Part shown: positions 1 through 13,183 of the stretch, piece by piece
Layout of the letters: every line of letters begins with the position of its first letter
Numbering within the stretch: the first letter of the stretch is position 1
Source of the DNA: JAWOFN01 sp046497505 [NCBI: bacterium]
Lineage (GTDB): Bacteria > Blakebacterota > Blakebacteria > Blakebacterales
Assembly (NCBI GenBank): GCA_046497505.1
Contig: JAWOFN010000005.1
Location: 1 to 14,165, forward strand
Reading direction: 5' to 3'
Length of the DNA: 14,165 bases
Made by a program: the position numbers and the translations under genes
The notes under the pieces: model-generated
Databases searched by the model: none
What the model was told of the DNA's origin: nothing
The model's input: only the letters and a program-made list of their open reading frames with translations

Positions 1-15
1 CGAGGAACGAGCGGG
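1..15 (+). repeat. Left arm of 15-bp inverted repeat
   Basis: CGAGGAACGAGCGGG is the exact reverse complement of bases 60-74. The arm begins at the first base of the window, so it may be longer. It encodes EERAG on the plus strand in the same frame as the displaced sigma helix. Confidence 0.9.
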
Positions 16-241
16 ACGGCTCACCCAGGACGCTTTCGTGCAGGCCTGGGAGAAGCTGACCCGCTCGTTCCTCGTCACCGCACATCCGCAGGCAGAGGGC
101 GAAGACCCGGTCCGCGTACAAACGATAGAGGGCCTCGAAGGCCTCCACGCTGCCGCGCTGTGCATCTTCCACCAGAGCGGAGGGATCGGGCTCCTCCCCT
201 CCCTGCGGAGGGTGCGATGGCTGTCTTGACGCGATACCCAC
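1..241 (-). CDS. ECF-type RNA polymerase sigma factor, N-terminal part, with an inverted internal segment; runs off the left edge
   Basis: The minus strand encodes a sigma-70 region 2 start: after a Pro/Gly-rich leader come ALVEDAQRGSVEAFEALYR and LYADRVFALCLRMCGDEER, typical of region 2.1 of extracytoplasmic-function sigma factors. The expected next helix is absent from this strand. Bases 59-16 instead read GQLLPGLHESVLGEP, while the plus strand of the same bases reads RLTQDAFVQAWEKL, the canonical region 2.2 core-RNAP-binding helix. Flipping bases 16-59 restores a continuous sigma sequence in frame. As written the frame stays open but would lack the helix. The start is uncertain: GTG at 241 gives the shortest leader, GTG at 247 or 280 are alternatives, and no strong ribosome binding site decides. 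An in-frame TAA lies upstream of 325. Family assignment is firm; whether this copy is functional is unknown. Confidence 0.75.
   Translation of the reverse strand, partial: MGIASRQPSHPPQGGEEPDPSALVEDAQRGSVEAFEALYRLYADRVFALCLRMCGDEERAGQLLPGLHESVLGEPSRSFL
16..59. other. 44-bp segment in flipped orientation inside the sigma factor gene
   Basis: On the plus strand, in the frame starting at base 2, this segment with its arms reads EERAGRLTQDAFVQAWEKL, which is sigma region 2.2. The rest of the sigma gene is on the minus strand. An inversion does not change length, so both orientations stay in frame and neither contains a stop. It is either a real small inversion between the flanking repeats or a fold-back chimera at an assembly end; the window edge favours the latter. 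Confidence 0.8.
60..74 (-). repeat. Right arm of 15-bp inverted repeat
   Basis: CCCGCTCGTTCCTCG is the exact reverse complement of bases 1-15. The bases just inside the arms (16 and 59, both A) do not pair, so the repeat ends there. On the minus strand it encodes the end of the intact part of the sigma factor (EERAG). Confidence 0.9.
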
Positions 242-3452: not shown

Positions 3453-3977
3453 ATGGCCGAGCGGAACGTGGTCTTCCTCTGTGGAGGGTATACCCCCTCA
3501 TCCCGGACCCATGTGACCCTCCAGGCAGTGGCCGAACCCCTGGAGGAGGCCGGGGTGTCCATCCGCTTCGTCTGCCTGGACGAGCTGCCCCTCCCCCTGC
3601 TGGACCCCTCCAGGCCCTTCCATCCCGACTCGGACCGCCTGAAGGAGTGGGTGACGGAGGCGGACGCTGTGGCGGTGGGGAGCCCCGAATACCACGGTGC
3701 CATGTCCGGGTCGGTGAAGAACCTCCTGGACTATCTCAGCAAGGAGGAGCTCTCGGGCAAGCCGGCGGGGCTGGTGGCCACCTCCGGCGGTGTGAAGGGC
3801 GGGACGAACACCCTCAACATGCTCCGTCTCATCTTCCGGGCCTTCCACGCCCATGCCCTGCCGCAGCAGGTCGCGGTGAGCGAGGAGGACTTCGACGAAA
3901 TCGGGGACCTCGCCGACCCCCGGGCCCGGGCTTACGCTCACCGGCTGGGTAAGGCGATCCTGGAGGCCATCTCATGA
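3453..3977 (+). CDS. NAD(P)H-dependent FMN reductase (flavodoxin-like fold)
   Basis: The 174-residue product matches the NADPH-dependent FMN reductase / SsuE-like family in length and layout. Strand 1 leads into the phosphate-binding loop GGYTPSSRTHVTLQAVAEPL. The second flavin loop, SPEYHGAMSGSVKNLLDYLS, corresponds to the usual PEYN...PGxLKN motif. TSGGVKGGTNTLNMLRL fits the third loop. The predicted reaction is reduction of FMN (possibly quinones or azo compounds) by NAD(P)H in the cytosol; the physiological acceptor cannot be read from the sequence. The ATG at 3453 follows GGAAAGGG with a spacing of about 4 nt. The stop overlaps the start of menC (ATGA at 3974), indicating translational coupling. 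It begins 22 bp after the end of the lipoprotein remnant. Confidence 0.85.
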   Translation: MAERNVVFLCGGYTPSSRTHVTLQAVAEPLEEAGVSIRFVCLDELPLPLLDPSRPFHPDSDRLKEWVTEADAVAVGSPEYHGAMSGSVKNLLDYLSKEELSGKPAGLVATSGGVKGGTNTLNMLRLIFRAFHAHALPQQVAVSEEDFDEIGDLADPRARAYAHRLGKAILEAIS

Positions 3978-5098
3978 TCGAGCTCACCTCCCTCACCCTC
4001 CGTGAGATCGCCCTCCCGCTGCGGGAGCCCTTCCGGATCTCCTCCGGGGTGACCACCGGCCGCCGGATCCTCCTTTTGGAGCTCACCTCGGCGGATGGGA
4101 CCACCGCCTGGTCGGAGTGTGTTGCGGGGGAGCGGCCGAACTACTCTCCCGAGACCATCGAGACCGCGTGGACGGTGATCCGGGAATATGCGGCACCCCG
4201 CCTGCTGGGGGTGGAGGTGGCCTCTGCCCCCGACGTCCATCCCCTCCTGGAAGAGGATTTCCGGGGACACAACATGGCGAAGGCGGCCCTGGAGATGGGG
4301 ATGTGGGAGCTGGCCGCTCGGCAGAAAAGGGTCCCCCTCTCCCGGTTGCTGGGCGGGGAGCGGGAGCGCATCGAGGTGGGCATCTCCATCGGGATCCAGG
4401 AGGACCCCCAGGCCCTGGCCGTGAAGGCGGCCGACCGTCTGGCCGAGGGGTACCGGAAGATCAAGCTGAAGGTCGAGCCCGGAGCAGACGTTCCCTGCGT
4501 GGCCGCGGTCCGGGATGCCCTTGGACCCGACGCCCCCCTCATGGTGGATGCCAACAACGCCTACACGCTGGACGACCTGCCGCTCCTGAAGGAGCTGGAC
4601 GCCTTCGGTCTGATCATGATCGAGCAGCCCCTGGCGTGGGACGACGTGGTCCAGCATGCGAAGCTGCAGCGGGAGCTGGACACCCCCATCTGCCTGGACG
4701 AGAGCATCACCTCGCCGCAGAAGGCCCGGGACATGATCGAGCTGGAGGCGGGCCGCATCGTGAACATCAAGCCGGGGCGGGTGGGGGGCCTGACCCCGTC
4801 GGTGAACATCCACGACATCTGTCGCCGGGCCGGGGTGCCGGTCTGGTGCGGCGGCATGCTGGAGAGCGGGGTGGGACGGGGGTACAATGTGGCCCTTGCC
4901 TCCCTGCCGGGGTTCACCATCCCCGGTGACGTCTCCCCGAGCCGCCGCTACTGGGAGCGGGATATCGTCGAGCCCGAGTGGACCATGGAGGAGGGCACGA
5001 TCGCCGTGCCGTCCGGCCGCTCGGGGATCGGTGTCGAGGTGGACATCGGACGGGTGGAGGACCTGACGGTCCGGGCCGAGACGCTGAGTGTGGGCTGA
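3974..5098 (+). CDS. menC: o-Succinylbenzoate synthase / N-acylamino acid racemase (enolase superfamily)
   Basis: This 374-residue protein has the muconate-lactonizing subgroup architecture: an N-terminal capping domain (to about 125) and a TIM barrel with complete catalytic residues. These are the KxK motif Lys164/Lys166 (YRKIKLKVEPG), metal ligands Asp192 (MVDANNAY), Glu217 (MIEQPLAWDD) and Asp242 (CLDESI), and the second catalytic Lys266 (NIKPGRVGG). Overall similarity is to the MenC type 2 (OSBS/NSAR) family, which dehydrates SHCHC to o-succinylbenzoate in menaquinone synthesis; some members racemise N-acylamino acids instead. No other men gene is in the window, so the biosynthetic role is likely but not proven by context. 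It overlaps the FMN reductase stop by 4 nt (ATGA) and is followed after 59 bp by the BtuF-like receptor. Confidence 0.88.
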   Translation: MIELTSLTLREIALPLREPFRISSGVTTGRRILLLELTSADGTTAWSECVAGERPNYSPETIETAWTVIREYAAPRLLGVEVASAPDVHPLLEEDFRGHNMAKAALEMGMWELAARQKRVPLSRLLGGERERIEVGISIGIQEDPQALAVKAADRLAEGYRKIKLKVEPGADVPCVAAVRDALGPDAPLMVDANNAYTLDDLPLLKELDAFGLIMIEQPLAWDDVVQHAKLQRELDTPICLDESITSPQKARDMIELEAGRIVNIKPGRVGGLTPSVNIHDICRRAGVPVWCGGMLESGVGRGYNVALASLPGFTIPGDVSPSRRYWERDIVEPEWTMEEGTIAVPSGRSGIGVEVDIGRVEDLTVRAETLSVG

Positions 5099-8194: not shown

Positions 8195-8318
8195 GCTCCC
8201 GTGGGAGGGGGGCCTGCCGTGGGGATATCGTATACTCCCTCCATCCTGCAGGGGGATGCGCGCGACCGGAGAGGGCGCGCTGCGAACGCGGACCGAGGAC
8301 GAATCGGAGGAAGAGGCC

Positions 8319-9170
8319 ATGGAACCCATCCGGAACCGTCATCTTCAGGCGACCGCCCGGCGGCTGGCCGCGGCCGTGCTGTGTCTCACGCTGCTGGGTG
8401 CCCCGCCCGCCTCCGCTCAGGACACGCCCCCGCCGCCCCCCGCCAGCGCGGGGCTGGAGTTCACCAGCCTGGTGAACCTGCCCATCGCCGGCATGCTCGA
8501 GCGGGGATCATACGAGATCGACCTGCGGATGTATCCCCGCGGCGGTCTCTATTCCTTCGTCTCCATCGGTCTGTTCAGCTCGGTGGACATGGGCTTCTCC
8601 TTCGGTGCGGGGAACGTCATCGGCCGGGGTCCGGTGGACTGGAACCCGAGCGCCGAGTTCCTCTTCAAGGCCCGGCTCCTGAGGGAGTCCTTCCTGCTCC
8701 CGGCCCTGGCCCTGGGATTCGCCAGCCAGGGCTACGGTCCCTACCTGGAGGATCTGGAGCGCTACACGGTCAAGTCCCCCGGCTTCTTCGCCGTGGCCAG
8801 CAAGAACTATCGTTTCCTGGGTGAACTGGGGTTCCACCTCGGGGCGAACAAGAGCCGTGAGGACGCCGATGACGATGACCTGAACTTCTATCTGGGTGTG
8901 GACAAGTCGGTGGGGACCGACCTCTACCTGGTGACCGAATACGACCTGGCCCTCAACGACAACGGCGATCAGGCGGTGGGCTACGGCAGCGGCTATCTCA
9001 ACCTCGGAGTGAAGTGGGTGCCCACATCCCGGCTCCGCCTGGAGCTCTTCTTCACCAACCTCCTGGACAACGTCCGGGCAGAGGGGAAGCCCGCCACCAT
9101 CGCCAACATCACCGAGACCCTGGGGGGTGCGGGCAGGGAGATACGGATCGTGTACGTCGACTGGTTCTGA
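8319..9170 (+). CDS. Secreted, probably outer-membrane beta-barrel protein of unknown function
   Basis: The 283-residue product starts with a clear Sec signal peptide: Arg-containing n-region, hydrophobic AAAVLCLTLLG, and the likely cleavage site ASAQ|DTPPPP, followed by a Pro-rich linker. The mature part alternates polar and hydrophobic residues in strand-like stretches rich in Tyr, Phe and Gly (GLYSFVSIGLFSSVDMGFSF; FAVASKNYRFLGELGFHLG; YLVTEYDLALND; YLNLGVKWVPTSRLRLELFF). It ends in YVDWF, and a C-terminal aromatic residue is the usual beta-barrel assembly signal. I do not recognise a named family. ATG 8319 is chosen for the GGAGG 8 nt upstream and because the signal peptide starts there; the frame is open back to 8256 without coding character. 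A TATACT at 8231-8236 could be a -10 element, but no -35 is visible. It is divergent from the copper ATPase; a shared stimulus is possible but unproven. Confidence 0.8.
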   Translation: MEPIRNRHLQATARRLAAAVLCLTLLGAPPASAQDTPPPPPASAGLEFTSLVNLPIAGMLERGSYEIDLRMYPRGGLYSFVSIGLFSSVDMGFSFGAGNVIGRGPVDWNPSAEFLFKARLLRESFLLPALALGFASQGYGPYLEDLERYTVKSPGFFAVASKNYRFLGELGFHLGANKSREDADDDDLNFYLGVDKSVGTDLYLVTEYDLALNDNGDQAVGYGSGYLNLGVKWVPTSRLRLELFFTNLLDNVRAEGKPATIANITETLGGAGREIRIVYVDWF

Positions 9171-9271: not shown

Positions 9272-9324
9272 CATGGTCATCCAATCGGAAGGAACATCAG
9301 CCGGAAGGTATGGAAGATTACTCC

Positions 9325-9735
9325 ATGGAGCAGACGATCAACCATGTGGCGCGGGAACGGGGAGAGTTCCGTCCCGAGGCCTATTTCTTCACACTCGACG
9401 CCCTGCAGGAGACGGTGGAGGGGCTGAACATCCGCCGGCATGTCTCGGGTCCCGAGGTGCTCCGGGGGGTGGTGCGTCTGGCCCATGAGCGGTTCGGCGA
9501 GACGGCACACCGGGTCCTGGACGGCTGGGGGATCCAGCAGACCCGGGACTTCGGGGTCATCGTGTACGACCTCATCGAGGCGGGGATCCTCTCCCACACC
9601 GAACAGGACAGCCTGGAGGACTTCGAGGACGTCTTCGACCTGGAGGAGGCCCTCTCCGAGGAGGCGTGGCGGCAGCGCTGGCGCATCTCGGAGGAGGGAT
9701 CACGGCCGCTCACGGGGGGAGGTCTGACGGATTGA
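9325..9735 (+). CDS. Minf_1886 family protein of unknown function
   Basis: The 136-residue product resembles the uncharacterised Minf_1886 family: an N-terminal segment with Arg, Glu and the motif YFFTLDALQETVE, then HVSGPEVLRGVVRLAHERFG, VLDGWGIQQTRDFGVIVYDLIEAGIL and an acidic tail DFEDVFDLEEAL. No transmembrane segment or signal is seen, so it is probably cytosolic. ATG 9325 is preferred because GGAAG ends 8 nt before it; ATG 9310 (five residues longer) has its purine-rich site only 1-2 nt away. The TGA at 9733-9735 overlaps the likely TTG start of the heptose kinase (TTGA), so the two are probably cotranslated. The family has no established biochemical role known to me; context ties it to ADP-heptose synthesis. 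Confidence 0.78.
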   Translation: MEQTINHVARERGEFRPEAYFFTLDALQETVEGLNIRRHVSGPEVLRGVVRLAHERFGETAHRVLDGWGIQQTRDFGVIVYDLIEAGILSHTEQDSLEDFEDVFDLEEALSEEAWRQRWRISEEGSRPLTGGGLTD

Positions 9736-10733: not shown

Positions 10734-11214
10734 GACCTCGGCACGTGTGGTGGACCGGGATGCGGCCGCCGACCGCTGCCGAACATGGCGTGACGAGGGG
10801 CTCACCGTGGTGTTCACCAACGGCGTGTTCGACATCCTCCATCCGGGCCACGCCGGCTACCTGGAAGAGGCCGGGGCCCTGGGCGACCGCCTGGTCGTGG
10901 GTGTGAACGACGATCTTTCCGCACAGCGGCTGGAGAAGGGACCCGCTCGCCCGGTCAATCCGCTGAGGGACCGGGCCTGGATGCTGGCCTCTCTGAGGAG
11001 CGTGGACCTGGTGGTCCCCTTCTCCGAGGATACCCCCCTCCAGCTCATCGAGGCCCTCCGTCCGGACGTTCTGGTGAAGGGGGGCGACTACCGGCGGGAA
11101 GAGGTGGTGGGGGGCGACGAGGTGGAGAGCTGGGGAGGCCGCACCGTCCTGATCCCCCTGCGTGAAGGATATTCGACCACCCGACTGGTTGAACGTATCC
11201 GGGACGGCGGCTAG
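10726..11214 (+). CDS. rfaE2: D-glycero-beta-D-manno-heptose-1-phosphate adenylyltransferase (transferase half of HldE)
   Basis: The 162-residue protein has the cytidylyltransferase-like fold of RfaE domain [21 protein letters not shown] with the nucleotide-binding HPGH (residues 39-42), [51 protein letters not shown], and a C-terminal [11 protein letters not shown] that fits the STT-type adenylate loop. It would transfer AMP from ATP to heptose 1-phosphate, giving ADP-heptose. The start overlaps the kinase gene by 8 nt (ATGTCTGA at 10726-10733), consistent with tight translational coupling and one-to-one production of what is a single polypeptide elsewhere. The epimerase (HldD), phosphatase (GmhB) and isomerase (GmhA) are not in the window. 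Confidence 0.92.
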
Positions 11215-11217
11215 ACT
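11189..11217 (+). promoter_or_regulatory. Likely sigma-70 promoter of the acidic TPR gene
   Basis: TTGAAC (11189-11194) and TAGACT (11212-11217) are separated by exactly 17 bp; each matches 4 of 6 consensus bases. Transcription would begin near 11224, leaving a leader of about 34 nt that contains AGGAG before the TTG start at 11258. The promoter overlaps the end of the adenylyltransferase gene. Confidence 0.5.
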
Positions 11218-11257
11218 CATAGTCAGGACCCCGGACCGACCAGACAGGAGATCGATC

Positions 11258-13183
11258 TTGGACCAGCCGATGCTCCATCCCCCCCTGCCCGAGGACTACA
11301 CCGACGAATGGGGTCGGATAACCGCCGAGGACCTGGGATTCGCCCCGGCCGCGGAGGCTCTGCTCAGGAACGGCCGTATCGAGGACGCCCGCCGTCTCTG
11401 CGAGGAGGGGGTCCGGTGTCATCCCTGGTATGCCACGGGGCACCTCCTCCTGGGCAAGACCTACATGCGCGGGGAGAACTGGTCGGACGCACGGGCCGAA
11501 CTGGAACGGGCGCTCCAGCTGGACGGGGCGTATCCTGCCCTGCTGAGCGACCTCGCCGGCTGCTACGAGCAGCTGGGCCTGGCGGACCTGGCCGTCGAGT
11601 GCCGCGCACTGGGGTACGACCTGGATCCCCGGCCCCTGAGGGACCAGGAGGCGGAGGGGCCCGAGCCGATCGGGGAGGATGGGATCGAAGAAGAGGAAGA
11701 GGATGTCCCCCCGGTGCAGGTACCGGAGGAAGGGGATGTCCCCGAGCTGGTGGGAGAAGAGGAAGAAGAGGAGATCGAGGAGGCGGCCGCCGCGCTGGAA
11801 GGCATGGGAGAGGCAGAGGAGCTCTCCGAGGAGGACTCACTCAGGGAGCTGGAGGCCCTCTTCGAGGGTGCCAGTGCCGGTCTCGAAGGCTTCGAGGAAG
11901 ACCGAGGGCAGGAGGACCTTACCGAGGGGGGACCCGACGTGGCAGAGGATCATGAACCGGAGGAGCTGGCGCCTGAGGAGGAGTCCCCGGAGCAGCGGGA
12001 AGAAGGAGACCTGGCCGCCGCAGCGGAAGCCGCCGCGGCCGCCTACGGTCTGGGGGACCTGGAGGGGGAAGAGGAGGAAGGGGGTGCGGAGGCCGGAGCC
12101 GAGGAGGATGAGAAGGCGGAGCTCTGGAAGAAGATCATGGAACAGGCGGAGCAGGCGGAGGCGGGACGCGCTCCCGATCTCTCGGAACTGGAGTCGCTGG
12201 CGGCTCCCGGAGAGGCCGGGGAAGAGGGGGAGGAAAGTGACGAGGAGGAGCCGGCCATCCGCGGTACCGACTTCGAGGGGATGGGAGAAGGGCCTTCCGA
12301 GGAAGTGAGCGAAGAGGTCCAGCCCATCGAGGGGCTGGAGATCAGCCAGCCCGGGGGGGGGCTCACCGATGCCGGGCCGGAGCATTTCGAGGAGGAAGGA
12401 GCGGAGGGAGAGGAAGAAGCCGGGGAAGCGGGCGGGGAGGACGAAGAGCGGCTCGTCCGGGGTCCCTCCGAGGTCTCGGAGGAGGCCATGGAGGCCGCCT
12501 CGGAAGGATTGGACTTCGAGAGCACCATGGAGGTGGCCGGGACAGCGGGGGAGGAGGAAGGGGAGGGACCGATGGTGGAAGGGCTGGAAGGTCTGGAGAC
12601 CACGTCCTTCGAGGAGGAAGAGGTCCCGGAGGCGGGGGCCGAGGAGGAGGAACTCGAGGCGATGGCCGACCTGGACGACCTGATCGGTGAGGAGGAGGAA
12701 GGAGCCGAAGAGGAGCAGCCGGAGGTGGCGGAAGCGGCCGACGAGGCCCTCCGAGCCCTGGAGGCGGAACTGGCTGGCGCCCGGCCCGCCGGGGAGGAGG
12801 AGCCCGAACTCGACCGGGAGGAGGCGGCTGCCGGGCCGGCCGATGCGGAACCCGCGCCCGAGGAACCGGGATCCGTTCCCGAGGAGGAAGAGGAGGAGGA
12901 GGAGATCGGTCTCGACCGGGCGGAAGACCTGGAGACCACCGCGGTCCAGGACCCCGCAAAGGTGGAGGAGACCGGCGAGGAGGGCGAGCCCGCCCCCACC
13001 GCCGGGGGGATGTCCATCGACAACACCGAGGACTCGGTGCGGGCGGCCATCCGGGCCGAGATCCTGGCCGCCCAGGGCAAGTACAAGGAGGCGCTGCGCT
13101 ACTTCGAGGCCCTCCAGCTCTGGGACCCGGAACGGACCACCTTCAAGGAGCGCGTGGAGCAGCTCCGCCGCATCAGTCAGTAG
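11258..13183 (+). CDS. TPR protein with a 450-residue Glu-rich acidic middle region
   Basis: The 641-residue product has three parts. Residues 22-125 form about three TPR-like helix pairs (AAEALLRNGRIEDARRLCEEG; ATGHLLLGKTYMRGENWSDARAELERAL; AYPALLSDLAGCYEQLGLADLAVE). Residues 131-580 are low complexity: by hand count 148 Glu and 26 Asp against about 15 Lys/Arg, with runs up to EEEEEEEE (542-549). Residues 590-641 form a C-terminal helical domain with a last TPR-like unit (EILAAQGKYKEALRYFEALQLWDP). Short motifs recur in the acidic part (EGMGE at 181 and 340; GLE/GLD at 209, 359, 417, 442 and 445; LETT at 446 and 558). There is no signal peptide or membrane segment. TTG at 11258 is chosen because AGGAG lies 7 nt upstream; ATG 11270 is the alternative. 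The layout recalls FimV-like scaffolds only loosely. Function unknown; a scaffold or cation- or protein-binding role is inference. Confidence 0.8.
   Translation: MDQPMLHPPLPEDYTDEWGRITAEDLGFAPAAEALLRNGRIEDARRLCEEGVRCHPWYATGHLLLGKTYMRGENWSDARAELERALQLDGAYPALLSDLAGCYEQLGLADLAVECRALGYDLDPRPLRDQEAEGPEPIGEDGIEEEEEDVPPVQVPEEGDVPELVGEEEEEEIEEAAAALEGMGEAEELSEEDSLRELEALFEGASAGLEGFEEDRGQEDLTEGGPDVAEDHEPEELAPEEESPEQREEGDLAAAAEAAAAAYGLGDLEGEEEEGGAEAGAEEDEKAELWKKIMEQAEQAEAGRAPDLSELESLAAPGEAGEEGEESDEEEPAIRGTDFEGMGEGPSEEVSEEVQPIEGLEISQPGGGLTDAGPEHFEEEGAEGEEEAGEAGGEDEERLVRGPSEVSEEAMEAASEGLDFESTMEVAGTAGEEEGEGPMVEGLEGLETTSFEEEEVPEAGAEEEELEAMADLDDLIGEEEEGAEEEQPEVAEAADEALRALEAELAGARPAGEEEPELDREEAAAGPADAEPAPEEPGSVPEEEEEEEEIGLDRAEDLETTAVQDPAKVEETGEEGEPAPTAGGMSIDNTEDSVRAAIRAEILAAQGKYKEALRYFEALQLWDPERTTFKERVEQLRRISQ

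Follow-up and report, generated by a model that had tools for sequence, protein, structure and literature searches.

The window analysed here, a stretch of 14,165 nucleotides, begins with two inverted arms and a loop that adjoin the N-terminal part of a putative ECF sigma factor gene, which lies on the minus strand at positions 75–280 and runs off the window edge. The first arm (1–15, plus strand) reads as sense sigma sequence with the codons E-E-R-A-G, the last of which ends at position 16, and its residues are identical to those that the minus-strand gene encodes at 60–74. The loop (16–59, plus strand) encodes R-L-T-Q-D-A-F-V-Q-A-W-E-K-L at 17–58, the stretch of an ECF sigma factor that we take to be region 2.2. 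The second arm (60–74), which we assign to neither strand, reads T-R-S-F-L in the plus direction. Farther into the window, a run of nine G residues (2467–2475) lies within a minus-strand region extending from about position 2762 down to 410. At this run a minus-strand receiver domain (Response_reg, 49.4 bits, profile positions 1–79 of 111) shifts frame into the reading frame 410–2323, which has the order PAS-HisKA-HATPase-receiver, and a one-base homopolymer indel, whether an error or real, seems to split a single REC-PAS-histidine kinase-REC gene. Positions 3974–5098 encode a protein of the enolase/mandelate racemase family, the reading frames 8256–9170 and 9310–9735 matched no Pfam family, and the plus-strand frame 11162–13183 encodes 673 residues with TPR matches and, in its middle, a very long low-complexity stretch rich in glutamate.

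Could the inverted repeat at the start of the window have arisen by chance? Positions 1–15 (CGAGGAACGAGCGGG) and 60–74 are exact reverse complements around a loop of 44 bases, which confirms the arms described by an earlier reading of the same DNA (hereafter the sequence-only reading). Nowhere else does the window contain an exact inverted repeat of 15 bases whose loop is 100 bases or shorter. Such repeats occurred at 3 positions in 200 simulated second-order Markov windows, or about 0.015 per window when placement at base 1 is not demanded, and the 74 bases folded as single-stranded DNA give −32.1 kcal/mol, with a z score of −8.43 against shuffles. Thus, the hairpin at 1–74 is real and not a product of chance. 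Its arm begins at window base 1, which we infer to be the end of the contig. We considered that the hairpin might be the telomere of a linear replicon and rejected this idea, as the 44 loop bases code for part of an ordinary gene.

Which strand encodes the sigma factor? Read as written, the minus strand gives ...CGDEERAGQLLPGLHESVLGEPSRSFL. Substituting the plus-strand sequence of the loop gives ...CGDEERAGRLTQDAFVQAWEKLTRSFL, and both versions are open. The form with the plus-strand loop matches the Pfam family Sigma70_r2 at 25.2 bits (cut-off 24), and the form as written gives no match; the match covers profile positions 1–39 of 71 in a scan of the reconstituted N-terminal part of the protein. 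The proposal of the sequence-only reading that region 2.2 is read from the plus strand and the rest of the gene (75–280) from the minus strand is therefore upheld, since the family is recognized only with the plus-strand loop. By this sigma-70 region 2 match, the gene would qualify as an ECF sigma factor. A natural inverted repeat within an uninterrupted plus-strand gene was also considered and rejected, as the plus strand beyond the second arm is antisense to the start of the same gene.

Relatives of the sigma factor were drawn from 3 loci found in a scan of the genome_contigs set and from the best 30 loci of 138 matching genomes, giving 33 aligned sequences, of which 32 are distinct. The 3 genome_contigs relatives, one from Acidobacteria and two from Nitrospirae, share 44–50% identity with the query, and that scan found no close relative with an intact sigma gene; consequently, the natural codons following E-K-L are known from distant relatives only. 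Of 149 genomes in the phylum to which one of these 3 relatives belongs, 138 had a match to the joined sigma query at E ≤ 0.001. The protein encoded at 3974–5098 has matches in two of the three sigma-relative genomes (27–30% identity). In the viral_contigs set, no relatives of the sigma factor or of the window's P-type ATPase were found, and a 40-base piece taken from the window had no exact match. Scored over its 16 residues against the 33 aligned relatives, two of which are identical, the segment has a mean BLOSUM62 score of 43.7 in the sense form versus −7.4 as written. Together, the Sigma70_r2 match and this contrast argue that plus-strand positions 1–59 are ordinary sense sigma sequence.

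Does the second arm belong to the same gene? After the L of K-L, the 32 distinct relatives carry two variable residues and then F (27), Y (4) or C (1), with R following in 25 of 32 and G in 24 of 32. In the T-R-S-F-L of the window, T and R fall in the two variable places and agree with 0 and 1 of 32 relatives, and S, F and L each agree with 0 of 32. Its S stands where 31 of 32 relatives carry F or Y, and the [F/Y]-R-G motif is broken by the second arm. A one-residue insertion would rescue the F of T-R-S-F-L and would not rescue the L. We also note, as weak evidence, that among the genome matches listed the alignments end at residues 82–90 of the 92-residue query, and the T of T-R-S-F is residue 89. 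The second arm does not seem to code for the sigma factor. We conclude from the misfit of T-R-S-F-L to the 32 relatives that sigma coding stops near position 60, where the second arm begins, and that this arm copies the complement of arm 1–15. In the comparison with related genomes that the sequence-only reading had advised, the rather distant relatives fit the sense loop and do not fit the second arm.

These observations bear on the possibility that the locus is an intragenic invertible element. Chanin et al. are said to have described, in 2024, intragenic invertons as short segments between inverted repeats within a coding sequence. At this locus, a recombinase would flip the 44 bp between the 15-bp repeats and so turn region 2.2, and with it RNA polymerase binding, on and off in frame. 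The window does hold a short segment between inverted repeats in coding sequence, and the segment is open both ways. Invertons are flipped by invertases and carry inverted repeats of 10–40 nt on their flanks, according to the portion of PMC11892184 on which we draw, and the exact 15-bp repeats fall inside this range. That both orientations remain open had been pointed out in the sequence-only reading and is true, but it counts for little because an open frame is the usual outcome of such an inversion: of 2058 trials in which 44-base pieces were inverted where they lay, within nine further reading frames of the window, 1666 kept the frame open. Furthermore, both repeats of an intragenic inverton should be part of the gene, whereas here the ON state would yield K-L-T-R-S-F-L and the right arm would replace the family's F/Y-R-G. 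A further difference from intragenic invertons is that the repeat occupies the extreme end of the sequence, its first base being exactly base 1. No recombinase was found among 13 reading frames of the window scanned with Pfam, although 14 kb is a small neighbourhood and such a gene could lie elsewhere. We reject an invertible element on the misfit of the right arm to the sigma family, and consider it extremely improbable. The picture drawn in the sequence-only reading, of 44 bp flipped between inverted repeats of 15 bp, is accordingly not supported. One change of strand near base 60 accounts for the layout, with no inversion needed.

We propose instead, on strong but indirect evidence, that the first 74 bases are very probably a chimera produced by fold-back at the end of the contig, an artefact of sequencing or assembly and not a real feature of the genome. 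As expected of a fold-back, the sequence passes through a short loop into its own reverse complement and, as far as rather distant relatives can show, only one arm is part of the normal gene. First, one strand of the sigma gene would end just past the W-E-K-L codons and fold back on itself. Second, its 3′ end, approximately CCCGCT at 60–65, would pair with the upstream AGCGGG at 10–15, which places the turn at about 60–65, and would then be extended with its own upstream strand as the template. The resulting molecule would carry the sense gene, the loop and the antisense gene in that order, and the second arm would be a fold-back copy of the complement of 1–15. Third, the assembler would run the contig into the chimera and halt 15 bases beyond the loop, so that the opposite strand appears as a 15-base arm starting at base 1. 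The originating step would have been library preparation, amplification or assembly. Judging from the spacing within the sigma family, the natural priming match was probably about six bases long, AGCGGG with CCCGCT. When a contig ends inside a fold-back arm, that arm must start at the contig's first base, and we see no such reason for an invertible element. The sequence-only reading had likewise rated an artefact as likelier than biology, and both the arm that starts at base 1 and the second arm that does not read as sigma sequence support that ranking.

How common are inverted repeats at other contig ends? Each end was scored by the longest stretch from the contig end that has an exact reverse complement across a loop of at most 200 bases. 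The sample comprised 189 ends of 100 genome contigs, of which 20 held matches to the sigma factor or to the protein 3974–5098 and 80 were chosen by number in genomes that comprise many contigs. Arms of at least 14 bases from base 1 were present at 4 of 189 genome-contig ends versus 16 of the 72,373 internal positions that were sampled (odds ratio 98, Fisher p 2e-7); with viral contigs added, the counts were 4 of 501 ends versus 19 of 180,964 internal positions. Across all internal positions, arms of at least 14 bases occurred at 175 of 795,555, falling in 23 bins of 200 bp, and arms of at least 30 bases at 14 of 795,555, in 2 places. In the contig L460, positions 1–186 form a long inverted repeat with 84-base arms and a loop of 18, and in L426, positions 1–122 form one with 37-base arms and a loop of 48. 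These two ends are likely fold-back artefacts of the same kind as the window start. The remaining two of the four ends are both ends of one contig, L455, with arms of 17 and 14 bases; because one frame at each of these ends is open straight through the arms and the loop, the L455 repeats may be natural. Arms of at least 9 bases were present at 0 of 312 ends of 156 whole viral contigs (0 of 54 in the first sample), so inverted repeats are not a general property of contig ends.

Sequences of this form could also arise in the cell. Inverted duplication would leave the start of the gene present twice, head to head, as would a hairpin template switch that happened once, and the structure would be the same as that of the artefact, such that the window alone does not separate the two. 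A real genomic fold-back, however, requires that a rearrangement destroying the sigma gene became fixed, and it requires that the contig or window ended, by chance, 15 bases past the loop; moreover, fold-back chimeras are frequent in sequencing data, as the part of PMC12870357 used here indicates. We therefore regard a fold-back in the genome itself as very unlikely.

For the artefact, the excerpts of the published work on which we draw offer several precedents. For short-read library preparation, hairpin-primed chimeras are described in two papers: as hairpin-type microhomology-induced chimeric reads from formalin-fixed samples (PMC8674242), and as chimeric inverted-repeat reads, explained by the PDSM model, from sonicated and enzymatically cut hybrid-capture libraries (PMC10908179). 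Whole-genome amplification yields artificial palindromes (PMC6218980), and fold-backs are described in long reads (PMC12870357), where another study is quoted to the effect that fold-back chimeras typically make up 1–4% of genomic reads from tumour samples. As in the chimeras of PMC8674242 and PMC10908179, the start of the window links one sequence with the strand opposite to it through a short inverted match, and the turn falls at that match. Unlike those chimeras, which in the excerpts used here are human sequencing reads, the chimera proposed for the window would sit in the end of an assembled contig.

Finally, the locus carries a caution for searches of draft assemblies, in which fold-back ends could be taken for intragenic invertible DNA. 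Such ends could pass as invertons, given that a short GC-rich stretch of coding DNA usually keeps its reading frame open when it is inverted. Two cheap filters would help to tell them apart: whether the repeat starts at the contig end, and whether both of its arms code for the protein family.
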